From Pannonibacter phragmitetus DSM 14782 (GTDB lineage Bacteria; Pseudomonadota; Alphaproteobacteria; Rhizobiales; Stappiaceae), in the NCBI RefSeq assembly GCF_000382365.1, contig NZ_KB908215.1, forward strand, positions 62,001 through 126,000: 64,000 nt of DNA, read 5' to 3'. The position numbers and the translations under genes are program-made. The notes beneath the pieces are model-generated. The model was not told the DNA's origin, did no database searches, and saw only the letters and a list, made by a program, of their open reading frames with translations. Shown here in pieces: positions 56,282-63,872 of the stretch. The number at the start of each line of letters is the position of its first letter. Position 1 is the stretch's first letter.

Positions 56282-56337
56282 CGCCGCAGTCCCTTCCGTT
56301 TGTCTTGTTGAGCATGAGCCTGCCACCAGCCGGATAT

Positions 56338-56355
56338 TATTTCAAGCTTGAAATA
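56338..56355. promoter_or_regulatory. Perfect palindrome upstream of the aminobenzoate operon, likely MarR operator
   Basis: TATTTCAAGCTTGAAATA is an exact 18-base palindrome, 57 bases ahead of the monooxygenase start in the divergent spacer to the toxin-antitoxin pair. Its core TTCAAGCTTGAA recurs at 57620-57631, and a 15/18 match lies at 44294-44311. Confidence 0.65.
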
Positions 56356-56434
56356 TTGGCATGCAAAAAGAAACTTCGGGGACGGAGTGAGCAGGCCGAT
56401 CTGCGGATTCGGGAGCCGTTTCAGCACGAAGTCT

Positions 56435-56446
56435 TGCCATTTGGCA
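56435..56446. promoter_or_regulatory. Short palindrome upstream of the antitoxin gene
   Basis: TGCCATTTGGCA has 5-base arms around TT and overlaps a possible -35 (TTGCCA at 56434-56439). Antitoxins of this type repress their own operon, so it is a candidate operator. Confidence 0.35.
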
Positions 56447-56481
56447 TGAACAAACATACTTTACGCCAAAGGGAGATGATC

Positions 56482-56892
56482 ATGCTGCAGGAAATCCCCC
56501 GCACCCGCGCCATGCCGGACGTGCCGAAGATCACCGCCGAAGAAGCGGCTGCGATGGCGCGGGCGGTGATCCGGCTGTTCGAACGCTGGCAGCTTTCCGA
56601 TGCGCAGGCACGGGAGATCCTCGGCGGCCTCCCGCCCCGCACCCATGCGCGCTGGAAGGCGGGTGAGCCGGGGCGTATCGACCGTGACCTTGCCACCCGC
56701 CTCTCCCTGCTGATGGGCATCCACAAGGGCCTGCGTTATCTCTTTACCGAAGCGGAGCGCGGTTATGCCTGGGTGCGCAAACCCAATCCGGTCTTCGGCG
56801 GGCGTTCGCCGGTTGAAGTGATGGCGCAGGGCGACATGTTCTCGCTGGCCCGTGTGCGTGCCTATCTCGACGCGGAACGCGGCGGCTTCTGA
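56482..56892 (+). CDS. Xre/MbcA/ParS-type antitoxin
   Basis: A 136-residue protein with an N-terminal helical DNA-binding part (AAAMARAVIRLFERWQLSDAQAREILGGLPPRTHARWKAG, read in two helices) and the C-terminal MbcA/ParS toxin-binding domain with the block FGGRSPVEVMAQGDMFSLARVRAYLDAERGGF. The start at 56482 has GGGAG 6 bases upstream; earlier in-frame Met codons do not. The stop overlaps the toxin start (TGATG), the usual coupling of these pairs. Confidence 0.85.
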   Translation: MLQEIPRTRAMPDVPKITAEEAAAMARAVIRLFERWQLSDAQAREILGGLPPRTHARWKAGEPGRIDRDLATRLSLLMGIHKGLRYLFTEAERGYAWVRKPNPVFGGRSPVEVMAQGDMFSLARVRAYLDAERGGF

Positions 56893-57581
56893 TGAACTCA
56901 CCGGCCCTGACACGGGTGGAGTGGCCCAGCGCCTTCCGCCTCATCCGCTCCATCTATCCACCGATTGATCTGTTCGAGGACATTGCCGACCCGCAGGACT
57001 GGGAAGCGCTTGCTTCAGCCGAATCGAAAACCAATCCGCGGATCTGGGATCATCTCGGGCAACTGGATCTGGTGCCTCCGCACCGGCGCGTAAGCGGCAG
57101 CGGTGCCAGCTATCTGATGGCGCCTTTCGTCCATGTCAGCACCGACCGGCCGGGCCGGTTCACCGATGGCACCTATGGCATCTACAGCGCGGGCAATGCC
57201 GAGGAAGTGGCGATCCGGGAAGTCGCCCATCATCACGGCCGCACCATGCGGGCCACACAGGAAGCGCCGGGCTGGACCTCCCAGTTCCGTATGCTTACCT
57301 GCCGCCTTGATCTTGACCTGCATGATGCAAGACCGGACACCCGCTATCACCACCCGGATGACTATGCCCCCTCGCAGGCGCTGGGCCGGGAACTCAGAGC
57401 CTCAGGCGCCAACGGCATCCTCTACCGCAGTGTCCGTTGCGAGGGTGGAGACTGCGCCGCCATCTTCTGGCCGGACCTCATCCCCATTCCCCTGCAAGCC
57501 GATCACTTCGACTTCCACTGGAACGGCACCATCGCCGACAAAGTGCGCAACTGCCGGACGGGAGCGATTTTCGGACTGTGA
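56892..57581 (+). CDS. RES-domain toxin
   Basis: A 229-residue protein with a RES domain: Arg in FRLIRSIYPPIDLF, Glu in SAGNAEEVAIREVAHH and Ser in NGILYRSVRCEGGDCAAIFWPD are the three residues that name the family. RES toxins act on NAD+ (degradation or ADP-ribosyl transfer). The protein is longer at the N-terminus than minimal RES toxins, resembling the ParT-like subgroup. It is coupled to the antitoxin by a TGATG overlap. Confidence 0.86.
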   Translation: MNSPALTRVEWPSAFRLIRSIYPPIDLFEDIADPQDWEALASAESKTNPRIWDHLGQLDLVPPHRRVSGSGASYLMAPFVHVSTDRPGRFTDGTYGIYSAGNAEEVAIREVAHHHGRTMRATQEAPGWTSQFRMLTCRLDLDLHDARPDTRYHHPDDYAPSQALGRELRASGANGILYRSVRCEGGDCAAIFWPDLIPIPLQADHFDFHWNGTIADKVRNCRTGAIFGL

Positions 57582-57619
57582 AAGATGAAAAGAGCCGCAT
57601 CCGCAAGACGCGCAAATAA

Positions 57620-57631
57620 TTCAAGCTTGAA
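57620..57631. promoter_or_regulatory. TTCAAGCTTGAA palindrome upstream of trpL-trpE(G)
   Basis: This exact 12-base palindrome is the same core as in the operator of the aminobenzoate operon (56338-56355). It lies 106 bases ahead of the Trp leader peptide, so the same MarR protein might act on anthranilate synthesis. Confidence 0.5.
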
Positions 57632-57736
57632 GCGACTGGTCTATTTTGCAACAGGGACCAGGCAAGTGGCGCAGGGGTGGTTCTTCCGCCGTTTCCCCGG
57701 TTGCCTGCCGCCTGTGGCTGCGCTAGGCAAACAGGC

Positions 57737-57784
57737 ATGAACACGCAGATGATCCGCATGGGCTGGTGGTGGCAGGACGCTTGA
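57737..57784 (+). CDS. trpL: Tryptophan operon leader peptide
   Basis: The 15-residue open frame [15 protein letters not shown] has three consecutive Trp codons and lies 140 bases ahead of trpE(G). It matches the leader peptides of rhizobial trp genes (three Trp in a short peptide) and is followed by mutually exclusive hairpins. Ribosome stalling at the Trp codons senses charged tRNA-Trp. Confidence 0.9.
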
Positions 57785-57786
57785 TT

Positions 57787-57869
57787 GGCGGCCTTGCGAT
57801 TTCTCATGTTCTGACGTGATCGAAGTTGACCCAAAGGCCGCCGCGGCAAGACCCGCAGGCGGCCTTTGG
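57787..57869 (+). promoter_or_regulatory. Trp attenuator (antiterminator and terminator hairpins)
   Basis: CCAAAGGCCGCC (57831-57842) pairs perfectly with GGCGGCCTTTGG (57858-57869), the terminator-like stem. The same left strand can pair instead with GGCGGCCTT (57787-57795), the antiterminator. The run after the stem is only moderately T-rich. The region pairing with the leader itself was not identified. Confidence 0.8.
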
Positions 57870-57923
57870 TCTGTCTGGGGTCTGGCCGGGGGAAGGCCTG
57901 GACCTGAACTGGAGGATGGACGA

Positions 57924-60092
57924 ATGCCGGTACCGGCTGAGCAGACTTTCAAGACCAAGGGCGGCATTGCCGTCACGCGCGGCGCACGCCCGGCCGACTA
58001 TGCGGAAGGCACCTCCCGCTGGATCGACCGGCTGGACGCGGAGCGCGGCGCGGTCCTCTCCTCCTCCTATGAATATCCGGGCCGCTACACCCGCTGGGAC
58101 ATGGCGCTGGTCAATCCGCCGCTGGTGCTGGAATCGGCCGGGCGCAACGTGGAAATCCGCGCCCTCAACGCCCGTGGCCTCGTTCTGCTGCCGGCCATTG
58201 CCGGGGTGCTGGCGGGCCATCCGGACGTGGAGGACTTCGCTGCCAGTGAGGGCCGCATGACCCTGACGGTGCGCAAGCCAGCCGCCCCCTTCCGAGAGGA
58301 AGACCGCTCGCGTCAGGCTTCCACCTTCTCCGTCGTGCGTGCCATCAAGGAACTGTTTGCCTGTGATGACGATCAGCTTGGCCTTTACGGCGCCTTCGGC
58401 TACGACTTGGCCTTCCAGTTCGAGCCGATCGAGCTGAAGCTGAAGCGCCCGGCAGACCAGCGCGATCTGGTGTTGTTCCTGCCCGATGAAATCCTCATCG
58501 TCGATCACCATGGCCGCCGTGCCTATGTGCTGGAGTATGACTTCGAGGTGGATGGCAAGCGCACCCACGGCCTGCCGCGTGACGGGGAGAAACAAGCCTA
58601 TCAACCGGCCAATGAAGATCCGGGCCGGGGCGACCATGAACCGGGCGAATATGCGAAGATCGTGGACCGGGCCAAGGAATACTTCCGCCGGGGCGACCTG
58701 TTCGAGACCGTGCCGGGCCAGACCTTCTACGAGCCCTGCGCCAACCCGCCTTCGGCCGTCTCCCGCCGCCTGCAGCAGATCAATCCCTCGCCCTATTCCT
58801 TCTTCATCAACCTCGGCAATGCGGAATATCTCGTCGGCGCCTCGCCGGAGATGTATGTGCGCGTCACCGGCGGGCGGCGTGTGGAAACCTGCCCCATCTC
58901 CGGCACCATCCGGCGCGGCAAGAATGCCATCGAGGATGAGGCGCAGATCCGCAAGCTGCTGAATTCCGCCAAGGACGAGGCAGAGCTGACCATGTGCTCG
59001 GACGTGGACCGCAACGACAAGAGCCGCGTCTGCGTGCCCGGTTCGGTCAAGGTCATCGGCCGCCGCCAGATCGAGATGTATTCCCGCCTGATCCACACGG
59101 TGGACCATATCGAGGGCAGCCTGCGCGAGGACATGGACGCGCTCGACGCCTTCCTCTCCCACGCCTGGGCCGTGACCGTGACCGGCGCGCCGAAGCGCTG
59201 GGCAATGGAATTCATCGAGAACAACGAGAAGAGCTCCCGCGCCTGGTATGGCGGGGCCATCGGTGCCGTGCTGTTCAACGGCGACATGAACACCGGCCTC
59301 ACCCTGCGCACCGTGCGCATCAAGGATGGCGTTGCCCAGATCCGCGCCGGTGCAACGCTGCTCTATGACAGCATCCCGGAAGACGAAGAGGCCGAGACCG
59401 AGCTGAAGGCCGAAGCCATGCGCGCCGCCGTGCGCGAGGCAGGACTGGCCGTGAAGGCCACGGAAACCGTGCGCGAGAAGAAGCCCGGAGCCGGTCTGAA
59501 GATCCTGCTGGTGGACCATGAGGACAGTTTCGTCCACACGCTGGCCAACTACTTCCGCCAGACAGGGGCCGATGTGGTCACCTACCGCACGCCGGTTGCC
59601 GACCACGTGTTCCATGACGTGAACCCGGACCTGGTGGTGCTCTCCCCCGGCCCCGGCAGCCCGAAGGACTTCGACTGCGCCGCCACCATCGGCCGCGCCC
59701 GCGCGCGGGGCCTGCCGCTGTTCGGCGTCTGCCTCGGCCTGCAGGCTCTCGCCGAAGGGCTGGGCGGGGAACTGGGCCAGCTCGACGTGCCAATGCACGG
59801 CAAGCCCTCCCCCATAACCCTCACCGGCAATTCGGTGCTGTTCGAGGGCTTGAGCTCGCCTGTCACGGTTGGCCGTTATCACTCGCTGTTTGCGAAGAAG
59901 GACAAGCTGCCCGCAGATTTCCGCATCACGGCGGAGACGGAAGACGGGGTCATCATGGCCATCGAGCACTCCAGCGAGCCGATTGCCGCCGTGCAGTTCC
60001 ACCCGGAAAGCATCATGTCCCTCGATCAGGATGCCGGCCACCGGATCATCGAGAACGTCGTGACCCGCCTGGTGAAGACGCGCCGGGCGTAA
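57924..60092 (+). CDS. trpE(G): Anthranilate synthase, fused TrpE-TrpG
   Basis: It converts chorismate and glutamine to anthranilate, the first step of tryptophan synthesis. The N-terminal part (about residues 1-510) is TrpE, with [37 protein letters not shown] and [11 protein letters not shown]. The C-terminal part is the glutamine amidotransferase: [18 protein letters not shown], catalytic Cys in [17 protein letters not shown] and His/Glu in [11 protein letters not shown]. The fusion is typical of rhizobia. The ATG at 57924 has GGAGG 8 bases upstream. Expression is controlled by the upstream attenuator. Confidence 0.96.
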
Positions 60093-60100
60093 AGTGCAAG

Positions 60101-60127
60101 CCCCCGGCGCAGAAATTGCGCCGGGGG
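60101..60127 (+). terminator. GC-rich hairpin after trpE(G)
   Basis: CCCCCGGCGC (60101-60110) and its complement (60118-60127) form a 10-base stem with a 7-base loop, 9 bases after the trpE(G) stop. The following GGGTATTTC has only a short T-run. It lies between convergent genes and could serve both. Confidence 0.7.
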
Positions 60128-60156
60128 GGGTATTTCAAGCCTGGCCTTCAGTCTCG

Positions 60157-61185
60157 TCAAACCCCGGCCTTCGTCAGCACCTTGCGGAACCTCGCCGCCA
60201 CCTTGCCAAAGCCGTCATCCGTACCGTGGATCTCATCGATCCAGTCTGTCACATCCGGCATGGCACCCCGGCAGTCGACAAGCCAGACCCCTGTCTGCTT
60301 GGGATCACCCGCGACGCGCTCCAGCATGTCGTAAAGCGCATCCACCAGAAACTTGATGATGTTGCGCCGAAGGGCATCGTCGACTATACCCCGCGCATCC
60401 AGCGGTTCGCCAAGCCATTCGTCCCGCTTCGCATGCTTTGGCTTGCGCGGGTCCTTTTTCTGCTTCAGTTCCGGATAAGCGTGATCATAGCCGTGAATGA
60501 AGACTGGCAGCGTCTTGAACTCGGCGTACTGGCGGATGTTGGTGATCACATCCCGGTAGGCTTTTTCAAGGAAAGTCAGCTTTTCGCCCAGAACCGCCAT
60601 GTTGATGTGCCCCGGCACGTCCTTCTTGTTGCTGTTGAACGGCTTCAGAATGTCGTGCAGCGCCGCCTTTCCGGTCTTTGGGTCCTCGCCGATAATGTCG
60701 TTGCCGGCAGCGGAAAACAGGAAGCCCTTCACGTTGTCCTTGTATTGCCAGAGGGCTGCCAGATATTCATTCCCGCCCTTGCCCGCAGGGCCATAGACAA
60801 TGTTTTCCGCAGTATCTCCAGCCGCGGCAACTGAATAGATCAGGTAATCCTTGCCCAGATGATCGACAACATCCTTCACAAGCAAGGGAAACTGATGCCA
60901 GCTATCGCCTTCCTCAACGATTACAGGCAGTTTTTCCCCTGAGTTGAACCGGTTGCGGAACCGGACCCAGCGCCGCCAGCGCTCCAGATTGTTGCCGATA
61001 CCAAGGGCACTTTCCAACTCCGCCTGATCAGGCGGTATATCGACCTTTTTCGGGTCCGGAATGATGGCGAAATCCAGACCGTGATGCCGTGCACGAACCT
61101 TGGCAACGGCCAGAATTTCCTCATCCGCGGACTCCGGATCAAGAAGAATTTCCAGATACTCAGCGTAGCTTATTTTCTCAGACAT
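60157..61185 (-). CDS. SGNH/GDSL-type hydrolase of unknown role
   Basis: A 342-residue protein that fits an SGNH hydrolase: block I EEGDSWHQFP (G-D-S), block II SVAAAGDTAENIV (Gly), block III FSAAGNDIIG (G-N-D) and a late DEIHGTDDGF that could supply the Asp-x-x-His of block V. No signal peptide was seen. The substrate (ester, acyl or carbohydrate) is unknown. It is divergent from a trypsin-like protease with only 84 bases between starts, and looks less GC-rich by eye than its neighbours, so the two may form an acquired module. Confidence 0.75.
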   Translation of the reverse strand: MSEKISYAEYLEILLDPESADEEILAVAKVRARHHGLDFAIIPDPKKVDIPPDQAELESALGIGNNLERWRRWVRFRNRFNSGEKLPVIVEEGDSWHQFPLLVKDVVDHLGKDYLIYSVAAAGDTAENIVYGPAGKGGNEYLAALWQYKDNVKGFLFSAAGNDIIGEDPKTGKAALHDILKPFNSNKKDVPGHINMAVLGEKLTFLEKAYRDVITNIRQYAEFKTLPVFIHGYDHAYPELKQKKDPRKPKHAKRDEWLGEPLDARGIVDDALRRNIIKFLVDALYDMLERVAGDPKQTGVWLVDCRGAMPDVTDWIDEIHGTDDGFGKVAARFRKVLTKAGV

Positions 61186-61269
61186 GACTTGCCCCCTCTT
61201 CTTATTCCCTTACGTTAACTATACCTTAAATTGCATACCGGTCAACGCACCAGTTGATAAGGAGGCATC

Positions 61270-62343
61270 ATGCGGGAAGAGGGCACAATCACAATTTCTG
61301 AACTCGGGGATAAGCTTGCAGAAGCAGCTGCGGGGCGCGTCCAGAAGAACCTGCGCAATCTGCGCAGAGCACTCAAGTATGCAAGCCAGGGCCTTGTCTC
61401 GCCGACCGAGACGAAGGCGCGTATTGAACGTTATCTGGAAGGACAAAGCCGCCCGCCAGAGCGCCAGCGGGCCCTGATTGAAGGGCATGACGATCTGGGC
61501 AAGGAAGCGCTGATCGGCACCAGCGACCTTCTGTCGGTCGAGTTTCTGGAAGCTGGACAACTTGCCGCCAGAGCCGTTGCCTGCATTCAGATCGCAGGCG
61601 GAGCCATCAGCGGGACGGGCTTTCTGGCCGGGCCCGGCCTGCTGCTCACCAACCAGCATGTTCTGGAAACGCCCGCCATGGCCGCTGCGGCGACGGCAGT
61701 ATTTGGCCATGAGGAGCAAAAATTCGGCATTCCGTCAGCGACCAGCGAATATGCGCTTGACCCGGGCACGTTCTGGCTTGCCGACAAGGAGCATGACTTT
61801 GCGCTCGTGGCGGTCTCTCCGGTCGGCGACACCGGAGTTCCGTTGACGGACTTTGGCTGGCATCCGCTGCTGGACGAGGGCAAGATCCTCGAGGGCCATC
61901 CGGTCAGCGTGATCCAGCATCCGCAGGGACGGCCCAAATGCATCGCCCTGCACAACAGCTATTTCCTGCTGCTGGGTAAGACGGACGATGAGGAGCGGTT
62001 CTGCTGGTATACGGCAGACACGGAAAGAGGCAGTTCCGGCGCGCCGGTCTTCAGCCGGGACTGGCAAGTCGTCGCTCTTCATCACAAGGCAGTGCCGAAG
62101 ACCAATGAGGATGGGGAGATCCTCGACCGTCTGGGCAAGCCAATGCCGCGTGCTGAATACGAGCGCTATCCCGACCGGGCAGACCATGTTGCCAACGAGG
62201 GCATCCGCGCGTCCCGCCTCCGGCGCTTCATCGCCAGTGCCCCGCTGGAGGTTTCCGCACACGCGGCCCTGCGGGATCAACTCGTCGCCCACTGGGACAG
62301 TCCACAAGCCCGCTCCTTGCGCGCGCGCTTTCCGCCGATCTGA
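61270..62343 (+). CDS. Trypsin-like serine protease with helical N-terminal domain
   Basis: A 357-residue protein. Residues about 1-110 are a charged helical region (ISELGDKLAEAAAGRVQKNLRNLRRALKY and following) unlike protease domains. The chymotrypsin-fold domain has the triad His in LLLTNQHVLE, Asp in KEHDFALVAV and Ser in RGSSGAPVFS, with the glycine pair of the oxyanion hole. There is no signal peptide, so it is likely cytosolic. AAGGAGG precedes the ATG. Cytosolic trypsin-like proteases with extra N-terminal helices occur in bacterial conflict systems; that role here is inference. Confidence 0.83.
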   Translation: MREEGTITISELGDKLAEAAAGRVQKNLRNLRRALKYASQGLVSPTETKARIERYLEGQSRPPERQRALIEGHDDLGKEALIGTSDLLSVEFLEAGQLAARAVACIQIAGGAISGTGFLAGPGLLLTNQHVLETPAMAAAATAVFGHEEQKFGIPSATSEYALDPGTFWLADKEHDFALVAVSPVGDTGVPLTDFGWHPLLDEGKILEGHPVSVIQHPQGRPKCIALHNSYFLLLGKTDDEERFCWYTADTERGSSGAPVFSRDWQVVALHHKAVPKTNEDGEILDRLGKPMPRAEYERYPDRADHVANEGIRASRLRRFIASAPLEVSAHAALRDQLVAHWDSPQARSLRARFPPI

Positions 62344-62365
62344 GGCAACTGGTGCTGCAATCCGC

Positions 62366-62800
62366 CTACCGCCGCCAGGTCTTCACCGCTGACAGCATCA
62401 GGCTGGTTTCGGTGGCGGAGACGCCTTCTATGAGGCGGATGCGGTGGAGGGCGGCGTCGAAGGAGGCGAGATCCGGCGTGGCGAGCTCGATCACCAGATC
62501 CCAGCGGCCATTGGTTGTGTGGATCGAGCGGGCTTCCGGCATGCCGCTGAGGCGGCGGATCACTGCATCGGCCCGCTTGCCCTCGATGGCCAGCATCATC
62601 ATGGCGCGGATCGGCAGGTCCTGCCCTTCGTTGCGCAAAACGGCAGTGAAGCCCTGAATCTCGCCGTTTTCCACCAGCCGCGACAGGCGTGCCCGCACGG
62701 TGGCGCGGGAGAGCTTCAGGTCAAGCGCCAGATCCGAGATCGAGCGGCGGCCATCGGCTCTGAGCGCAGCGATCAGGGCAAGATCAGTATCGTCCAGCAT
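62366..62800 (-). CDS. Lrp/AsnC-family regulator
   Basis: A 144-residue Lrp protein: N-terminal helix-turn-helix (MLDDTDLALIAALRADGRRSISDLALDLKLSRATVRARL, two helices seen) and a C-terminal RAM ligand domain. It is divergent from arginase and ornithine cyclodeaminase genes. Regulators in this position usually activate arginine or ornithine catabolism in response to the amino acid; the effector here is inferred. Confidence 0.88.
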   Translation of the reverse strand: MLDDTDLALIAALRADGRRSISDLALDLKLSRATVRARLSRLVENGEIQGFTAVLRNEGQDLPIRAMMMLAIEGKRADAVIRRLSGMPEARSIHTTNGRWDLVIELATPDLASFDAALHRIRLIEGVSATETSLMLSAVKTWRR

Positions 62801-62884
62801 GCGGCATCCTTCCAGTTTGGGAAGTTCAGCTTATCACTTTGGATAGTCTACTGCCCAGAGTGCGCAATTTTTTGTCTTCAGACT

Positions 62885-62897
62885 GCCATCTGATGGC
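62885..62897. promoter_or_regulatory. GCCAT-ctg-ATGGC inverted repeat between lrp and rocF
   Basis: A 5-base inverted repeat with 3-base spacer (GCCATCTGATGGC) lies 45 bases before the arginase start in the 142-base divergent spacer. It is a plausible Lrp half-site pair. Confidence 0.35.
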
Positions 62898-62942
62898 TGC
62901 ACTCTGAAAGAGATGCAGATCCGCAGTGAAGGAGGCCGAGGG

Positions 62943-63872
62943 ATGACGCAGATTGCGCTTGTGGGAGCACCGGTGGAAGCAGGCGCAGGGCGCAGGGGCT
63001 GTCTGATGGGACCGGCCGCCTATCGCACTGCGGGCCTTCAGGAAGAACTGGAAGCGCTCGGCCTTGCCGTCGAGGACCATGGCGACGTTGTGCCGGATCA
63101 GGCGCTGGATGTGCCGGACACGGACCCGAAGCTGAAGAACCTGCGCGCTGTTGCCGGCTGGACGCGGGCGCTTTACCGCAAGGCCCGGTCTTTGGCGGCG
63201 GGGCCGCAGATGCCCATCTACATGGGCGGCGACCATGCGCTGGCTCTTGGCACCCTCGCCGGGCACGCAGCCCATGCGGCGGGGGCCGGGCGGCCGCAAT
63301 TCGTGCTGTGGCTCGACGCCCATTCCGACATCAACACCTTCGAGAGCACGGTCAGCGGCAATCTGCACGGCACGCCGGTTGCCTTTGCCTGCGGCTTGCC
63401 GGGGTTTGACGTGCTGCTGGGCGAGAAGCTGGACACGCCGGTTTCGCCGGGCAACCTCTGCCTGCTGGGTCTGCGCTCGGTCGATCCGCCTGAGCGGGCG
63501 CTGATCCGGGAGCTTGGCATCACCGCCCATGACATGCGGGCCATTGACGAAAACGGCATCGCCCGGCTTCTGGAGCCGTTTCTGGAGCGCTGCGCCCGCG
63601 CCCACGGCTTCCTGCACGTGAGTCTTGATGTGGATTTCATCGACCCGGACATCGCTCCGGCGGTCGGCACCACCGTGCCGGGCGGCGTCACCTTCCGCGA
63701 GGCACATTTAGTGATGGAGATGCTGCATGACAGCGGCCTCGTCACCTCGCTGGATCTGGTGGAACTGAACCCCTTCCTCGACGACCGGGGCCGCACCGCC
63801 CGCCTGATGGTGGACCTGACCGCCAGCCTCTTCGGACGGCGCGTCATGGACCGCCCCACCCGCAGCTATTGA
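62943..63872 (+). CDS. rocF: Arginase
   Basis: A Mn-dependent hydrolase making ornithine and urea from arginine. The 309-residue protein has the metal-binding motifs MGGDHALALG, WLDAHSDINT and SLDVDFIDPD, with the substrate loop GNLHGTPVAFA. GGAGG lies ahead of the ATG at 62943. It is 14 bases before the ornithine cyclodeaminase start, and the two probably form an operon for arginine use under the divergent Lrp protein. Confidence 0.95.
   Translation: MTQIALVGAPVEAGAGRRGCLMGPAAYRTAGLQEELEALGLAVEDHGDVVPDQALDVPDTDPKLKNLRAVAGWTRALYRKARSLAAGPQMPIYMGGDHALALGTLAGHAAHAAGAGRPQFVLWLDAHSDINTFESTVSGNLHGTPVAFACGLPGFDVLLGEKLDTPVSPGNLCLLGLRSVDPPERALIRELGITAHDMRAIDENGIARLLEPFLERCARAHGFLHVSLDVDFIDPDIAPAVGTTVPGGVTFREAHLVMEMLHDSGLVTSLDLVELNPFLDDRGRTARLMVDLTASLFGRRVMDRPTRSY

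Follow-up and report, generated by a model that had tools for sequence, protein, structure and literature searches.

The 64,000-nucleotide stretch of the Pannonibacter phragmitetus DSM 14782 genome studied here (contig NZ_KB908215.1, positions 62,001 to 126,000; referred to as the window, with positions counted from its first base) holds two divergent genes, one for an SGNH-type hydrolase of 342 residues (60157-61185, reverse strand) and one for a trypsin-like protease of 357 residues (61270-62343, forward strand), which an initial annotation had proposed as a small defence or stress module. Both open reading frames (ORFs) are intact, and their positions, divergent orientation and the 84 bp separating their start codons (intergenic region 61186-61269) are as that annotation described. 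The pair is flanked by trpE(G) (57816-60092) on one side and by an Lrp-type regulator and an arginase (62366-63872) on the other. The lower GC content ascribed to the pair was borne out, above all at third codon positions (GC3): the SGNH gene has a GC of 0.560 and a GC3 of 0.679 and the protease gene 0.626 and 0.704, compared with 0.656 and 0.829 for trpE and 0.674 and 0.803 for the arginase gene. No third gene accompanying the pair is apparent from the ORF layout; no search aimed at immunity genes was made.

Architecture of the two proteins

No Pfam, PADLOC or NCBIfam family matches the SGNH protein up to E = 1. The blocks EGDSW, GND, HGYD and DE(I/L)H are invariant or almost so in two alignments of 32 and 20 rows, and in the latter they are kept in relatives down to 27% identity. 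The EGDSW block (residues 92-96; 60898-60912, reverse strand), with the presumed nucleophile S95, is invariant in 32/32 and 20/20 rows, as is the GND block (residues 161-163; 60697-60705, reverse strand), which forms the oxyanion hole in SGNH enzymes. In the DEIH block (residues 317-320; 60226-60237, reverse strand) E318 and H320 are invariant. Set against the superfamily blocks GDS, G, GxND and DxxH, residues S95, N162 and H320 are invariant and G123 and D317 are present in at least 90% of the 20 rows, and several relatives exceed the Pfam cut-off for Lipase_GDSL_2. In a PDB search, an AlphaFold2 model (predicted local distance difference test (pLDDT) 77.7, predicted template modelling score (pTM) 0.80) matches SGNH esterases, EstL5 first (E = 3.9e-5) and Axe2 among those that follow (E = 5e-4); the six matches at E ≤ 0.001 have low TM-scores when normalized by query length (0.32-0.39). 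Judged from its blocks and its model, the protein has a predicted SGNH fold and is a putative esterase of a distinct clade.

A Lys/Arg-rich insertion (residues 236-256; 60418-60480, reverse strand) follows the HGYD block, carries the motif D-x-R-x-P and is modelled at a pLDDT below 50, making it a candidate protease-sensitive lid. Counted by eye, the motif is present in 20 of 64 rows (17 from the window protein to that of locus L042, plus L067, L068 and L070) and lacking in the other 44; as it also occurs in solitary SGNH proteins, we discarded the idea that it marks trypsin pairs only. The extra N-terminal region of the SGNH protein is conserved in many relatives. A shared EAD-like adaptor domain was also considered and rejected: with residues 1-58 as a profile against the ORFs of 122 loci, all matches up to E = 1 were SGNH proteins.

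The protease matches Pfam Trypsin_2 (E = 1.7e-20) over residues 115-270 (61612-62079), and its triad of H130 (61657-61659), D176 (61795-61797) and S256 (62035-62037) is conserved in 11 of 11 aligned rows. The 50 PDB matches listed in a fold search with its model are trypsin-fold proteases, among them FAM111A, V8/Esp and DegS. In PADLOC the protease matches solely the protease part of RT-Protease_XI (E = 2e-7), and no PADLOC defence model covers most of either window protein. Six residues N-terminal of the catalytic serine lies D250 (62017-62019), at trypsin position 189, where Asp confers Arg/Lys specificity, and the same specificity would be predicted here. Asp occupies this specificity-pocket (S1) position in 32 of 35 protease ORFs with a readable motif, out of 39 examined, a set that includes the window protease and a few fragments of one gene. 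The helical N-terminal domain initially attributed to the protease finds weak support: two helices are predicted in the region before the protease fold (residues 1-93; 61270-61548), albeit with low confidence (block pLDDT 31-60 over residues 1-90), and its only Pfam match is to NNH6, below threshold (E = 0.12).

The cytosolic location proposed for both proteins is compatible with a crude hydropathy scan using a threshold of 1.6, in which the best 19-residue means of the two are 0.86 and 1.54 and no signal peptide or transmembrane segment is seen in the SGNH protein. By the same scan no N-terminal export signal was found in 55 proteins (the window pair and 53 relatives), and an internal stretch slightly above 1.6 occurs in two relatives, L028 and L044, neither of them N-terminal.

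Distribution, fusions and partners

Among 87 genomes of the taxonomic family, 30 have a match to the SGNH protein and 24 to the protease. A close SGNH protein (at least 49% identity) occurs in 19 of them, and in 15 of these 19, from three genera (nine of the 15 belong to one genus), the protease gene divergently adjoins it; the 15 adjoining proteases are the 15 best protease matches in the family. The divergent layout recurs in Hoeflea and in two Ruegeria. Over 18 pairs the spacing between aligned starts is 84 bp in the window, 76-158 bp in 16 others and 415 bp in L087, and a shared operator was looked for in the 18 aligned intergenic regions and none was seen. A 364-residue ORF beginning MDSLSQFVLGAAVSALV lies between trpE and the SGNH gene in L021 (9172-10266) and L087 (6828-7922) and is absent there in the window. 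Three other Pannonibacter genomes, those of L021 and L087 among them, carry the pair at the trpE / Lrp-arginase site. In G008, the most similar genome of the genus among those compared, 72 bp stand in place of 60093-62367 between flanks that are 94.5-94.8% identical, so that both genes went missing (or arrived) together, as a single unit.

The association of the two families goes well beyond what chance would give, and in several lineages they are fused. With adjacency in 15 of 19 close family genomes the genes are not rarely neighbours elsewhere, nor are they stable core genes of the order, the SGNH domain being sporadic: our profile A1 finds it in 19 genomes out of 297 sampled from the order, 8 out of 385 from the class and 22 out of 398 from the phylum, samples that overlap and each count the window's own genome, and the tallies are lower bounds because at most five to seven candidates were scored per genome. 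Among plasmid records, the window query recovers 25 with the SGNH domain (12 conjugative) and an L045 query 30 (16 conjugative). A viral or phage origin was rejected, as a pattern scan of IMG/VR, which reaches close relatives only, found no relative and tblastn gave no match in 50,697 phage records.

In a number of relatives the two domains reside in a single protein. SGNH-trypsin fusions occur in L026-L030 and L069, and weakly in L048, where the trypsin falls below the Pfam cut-off; L030 bears a Phycisphaeraceae label that comes from a metagenome bin and may be wrong. L063 combines TPR-S, trypsin and SGNH, and L111, on a cyanobacterial plasmid, trypsin and SGNH. SGNH-caspase fusions are found in L043, L050 and L073, and by annotation also in L107 and L116. 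Cell-wall hydrolases are joined to SGNH as Amidase_3 plus M15 (L045, L051), as M15 (L020, L054) and, in one 1651-residue protein of L044, as Amidase_3, M74 and S8. Where the SGNH protein has no protease domain of its own, a trypsin gene often adjoins, fused to Endonuclease_NS (L042) or to Exo_endo_phos (L041, L051 and L098 by Pfam, L054 by similarity); overall, relatives of the protease carry Endonuclease_NS, Endonuclease_1, Exo_endo_phos or PLD domains. A C1-type gene lies near the SGNH gene in L050, L056, L064, L065, L069, L071 and L073, in four of which (L056, L064, L065 and L071) it adjoins an SGNH protein lacking a protease domain, and C25 genes lie beside weaker-scoring SGNH genes in L058 (above the Pfam cut-off) and L066 (below it). 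By annotation, genes near SGNH in relatives encode, among others, chitosanase, GH19, amidase and penicillin-insensitive murein endopeptidase proteins as well as C25 and C1 peptidases, and a neighbour in L042 gave the one strong PADLOC match over most of a protein, to SIR2, among 10 proteins scanned.

To quantify these associations we divided the SGNH loci from the order, class and phylum samples by score. A trypsin, caspase or C1-type peptidase is fused or at most two genes away in 11 of 15 better-scoring loci (E < 1e-60) and in 2 of 23 weaker-scoring loci (of 24, L082 having been dropped for want of a chosen SGNH ORF). In these counts L067 lies near a contig end, and L072 was scored as a miss though trypsin-type genes lie further off. 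Counted by gene, peptidases make up 10 of 58 within two positions of the SGNH gene versus 1 of 88 at four or more positions in the better group (Fisher p = 4e-4); for the weaker group the corresponding counts are 2 of 82 and 0 of 114 (p = 0.17). Neighbour genes were picked by a simple ORF rule in place of a gene finder. The peptidase probes were derived from loci found through SGNH (a trypsin profile built on the window and the earliest loci, together with individual proteins of plasmid loci); one caspase probe came from L050 itself, which is also matched by the L043 probe. Across 25 pairs the distances among SGNH proteins track those among the trypsins (Mantel r = 0.80, with none of 2000 permutations as high). 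In a quick-method tree of 64 chosen rows, with L072 labelled trypsin, the partnered rows need six changes among five peptidase labels, the minimum possible being four, and all labels including solitary rows need 13. Loci left out of the tree include L020, L029, L049, L052, L053, L055, L061, L077, L078, L082-L086, L089, L095, L097, L099, L103-L106, L113, L115 and L117.

Several other arrangements were seen around these genes. In L111 (1468-8219) the trypsin-SGNH fusion is followed by genes for GH19, tetratricopeptide repeat, amidase and murein endopeptidase proteins and, at a greater distance, by one for a di-heme cytochrome c peroxidase, and in L069 (10216-12117) a gene with an animal haem peroxidase domain lies between the SGNH-trypsin fusion and the C1-type gene. 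L128 (1879-6411) encodes a caspase, a response-regulator receiver and a trypsin in one protein, without SGNH. Solitary SGNH genes stand downstream of BlaI-/BlaR1-like genes in L090 (6248-7787) and L088 (6514-7776), which we presume may be another proteolytic signalling partner. Weaker-scoring SGNH genes in L059 (6962-8008) and L062 (9046-10110) directly follow a gene whose protein contains MKHLILVHGRDIKPAG; that of L059 has a weak Abhydrolase_6 match, below the cut-off. Proteins that start with long GGV, GMH or SGT repeats are encoded within 5 kb of SGNH genes in L047 (11373-12482), L051 (2492-3592) and L104 (2475-3656).

In the window itself, genes for an Xre-like antitoxin and a RES-domain toxin (56305-57581) lie upstream of trpE(G). 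The initial annotation placed this toxin-antitoxin pair next to the SGNH and protease genes, but trpE(G) intervenes, and we rejected a link between the two pairs: three other Pannonibacter genomes have no counterpart of the Xre-RES genes at this site, so that these may be a recent insertion.

Relation to described protease-dependent systems

Among described systems, those below come nearest to the pair; the comparisons extend to the accessible portions of the papers cited. Protease-deployed effectors have been proposed for the NucA-trypsin systems (System 3; Kaur et al., 2020, PMC7159879), which resemble the present genes in having a related Trypsin_2 protease, a mostly alphaproteobacterial distribution and, as in our relatives, S8 and peptidoglycan-attacking partners. 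Endonuclease_NS, the NucA domain, occurs in relatives or beside their SGNH genes in L030, L042 and L056 and, without SGNH, in L124, and the window protease finds trypsin-Endonuclease_NS proteins in two SGNH-less genomes, G051 (L124, by Pfam) and G071 (L126, by similarity to the L042 nuclease). Sequence similarity thus places the window protease among the relatives of the System 3 trypsins. In contrast to System 3, the constant partner here is an SGNH domain and not NucA, and the words GDSL, lipase, esterase and SGNH have no occurrence in the accessible text of PMC7159879. The seven window genes that were scanned (56305-63872) include no NucA (Endonuclease_NS), EAD1, STAND or NLR partner, and we therefore do not assign the pair to System 3, although it may work like it.

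In the CARD-NLR system LypABC of Caulobacter (PMC13236601), the peptidase activity of LypC is required for lysis and its nuclease is not. LypC is likened to the present proteases by description only, as a trypsin-like peptidase from an alphaproteobacterium that carries an endonuclease. The seven window genes include no NLR-like ATPase, and the account of LypABC, as far as accessible, includes no SGNH protein; the N-terminal region of the window protease, modelled at a pLDDT of only 31-60, gives no resolved CARD. Nuclease-protease pairs have been described in Hachiman, AVAST, Lamassu, DRT and canu systems (Tuck et al., 2025, PMC12799240), where a gated hydrolase depends for its activation on a protease of the trypsin or caspase type and disordered insertions appear to block the HamM active site; there an MBL nuclease has been shown to be activated, whereas here an SGNH esterase would take its place. 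In the VMAP ternary systems, too, a conflict peptidase, there a caspase, comes with the gene for a hydrolase (Kaur et al., 2020, PMC7159879), but that hydrolase is of the alpha/beta type, and no vWA-MoxR-VMAP genes are among the seven scanned. A single Chitinophaga pinensis protein combines caspase, amidase and GDSL lipase domains, as do some SGNH fusions, and has been called a seemingly highly destructive weapon (Asplund-Samuelsson, 2012, PMC3501461); its GDSL domain is likened to ours by description only, and no trypsin pair features in the accessible account. No description of an SGNH or GDSL protein paired with a trypsin in conflict systems was found in the literature covered, with most subscription papers and all preprints outside that coverage.

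A proposed conflict or lysis module and its alternatives

A constant hydrolase that associates with several proteases and with appended nucleases and wall hydrolases, all without visible export signals, fits the pattern of protease-deployed conflict effectors. We lean towards a conflict or programmed-lysis module of this kind and, if it is one, the protease probably acts upstream of the SGNH protein. The full proposal, a minimal two-gene module for self-destruction or lysis in which the protease processes or activates the SGNH esterase, strikes us as evenly poised. The constant part would be the cytosolic SGNH esterase of a distinct clade and the trypsin-like protease its activating partner; in relatives other proteases would serve the same SGNH domain (caspase, papain-like C1 and subtilase, with C25 next to weaker-scoring SGNH proteins only), and in larger versions either partner would bear additional domains of a killing type (nuclease, PLD, or a peptidoglycan amidase or peptidase). 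The protease would receive a stress or invader signal, perhaps by way of its N-terminal region or of another sensor, and the Arg/Lys-specific enzyme would then cleave its partner. The S1 Asp and the Arg-bearing insertion are compatible with such a protease-activated pro-effector pair, and in the window clade the insertion, which lies beside an SGNH active-site block and could, like the gating insertions of HamM, be a protease switch, is the candidate site; even granting the module and the upstream protease, cleavage at this point is a tentative and somewhat doubtful proposal. We infer that the freed esterase would attack an envelope ester, so that the cell lyses or growth stops. The fold matches to carbohydrate acetylesterases, together with the amidase partners, suggest O-acetylated envelope glycans as the substrate; the acyl lipids of the membrane may serve instead. 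Co-occurrence, fusions, sporadic spread and ties to peptidases, nucleases and wall hydrolases lend partial support to the small defence or stress module first suggested.

A number of observations weigh against this proposal, for which the support is comparative. In four of the 19 family genomes with a close SGNH protein (G043, G044, G062 and G069, all of one genus) no protease relative lies beside it, the trypsin relative of G062 being located elsewhere and fused to Endonuclease_1, and the three neighbours scanned beside the SGNH genes of L068 and L070 are metabolic; the SGNH protein may therefore work alone. Six SGNH proteins with no protease seen beside them keep the D-x-R-x-P insertion, which argues for a structural role of this element. 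None of the seven scanned genes of the window is recognisable as a sensor, and wall hydrolases that reside in the cytosol without export signals need an exit route. The pair occupies one site in four genomes of the genus and is in this respect less mobile than many defence genes. As for the statistics, the E < 1e-60 cut-off of the enrichment groups was picked after the scores were seen, the Mantel correlation partly reflects shared ancestry, and six label changes against a minimum of four lend only mild support to repeated partner exchange. The basis of the C1 label is resemblance to the L107 protein, itself above the Pfam cut-off; Pfam was run on four of the neighbours, and the one in L056 passes, those in L071 and L050 score too low for the cut-off and the one in L073 has no match.

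The chitosanase, GH19, amidase, murein endopeptidase, C25 and C1 genes near SGNH in relatives, the SGNH-amidase-M74-S8 protein of L044 and the published view of the C. pinensis protein as a weapon (PMC3501461) would also suit an antagonistic or predatory weapon, whose enzymes, freed by lysis or exported in another way, would digest competitors, prey or host envelopes after the protease has matured the cocktail. We consider this unlikely, given that none of the 55 proteins scanned has an N-terminal export signal (the stretches just above 1.6 in L028 and L044 are internal), that the ORF layout, in which no search was aimed at immunity genes, shows no third gene accompanying the pair, and that no wall-degrading domain was recognised in its two proteins. 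A housekeeping role, in which the esterase and an HtrA-like quality-control protease share a promoter region and take part, for example, in the turnover of O-acetylated polymers, is in our estimate distinctly improbable. The resemblance of the SGNH model to acetylxylan and carbohydrate esterases, the DegS-like proteases among the fold matches of the protease and the SGNH genes that adjoin metabolic genes without a protease would agree with it, but the sporadic distribution, the absence of the two genes as a unit from G008, the several types of peptidase partner and the fusions to nucleases, caspases and wall hydrolases would be unusual for genes of this sort.

The roles could also be reversed, with the SGNH protein as sensor or releaser and the protease as effector, so that removal of an acyl group, or a signal, switches on the protease, which would kill by proteolysis or by freeing fused nucleases. 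Nuclease-type domains are carried on the trypsin protein in L041, L042, L051, L054 and L098, the conserved N-terminal region of the SGNH protein might suit a sensor, and lysis by LypC needs the peptidase and not the nuclease (PMC13236601). Effector-type domains are nevertheless found on the SGNH protein itself in L044, L045, L051, L054 and L073, and no known SGNH sensor turned up in the literature, in which no search was aimed at one; we regard this arrangement, too, as quite improbable.

Returning to the protease-activated esterase, it is tempting to speculate that the pair represents a class of conflict system without a description in the literature covered, whose fixed part would be an SGNH esterase zymogen and whose activating protease (trypsin, caspase, papain-like or subtilase) could be exchanged. 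The Arg of D-x-R-x-P would then be the switch in the window clade, and envelope deacylation would lyse the cell, with the help of endolysin-like amidases in larger versions. We hold this general form to be unlikely. If right, the proposal of a protease-activated esterase would add a hydrolase class to the few protease-switched bacterial death effectors, namely gasdermin pores and gated nucleases, and would provide a compact two-gene system for asking whether an esterase can be switched on by proteolysis. A function could then also be proposed for the proteins with SGNH-caspase, SGNH-amidase or SGNH-trypsin fusions that rhizobial and other plasmids encode, many of which are now annotated as hypothetical or by a single domain.

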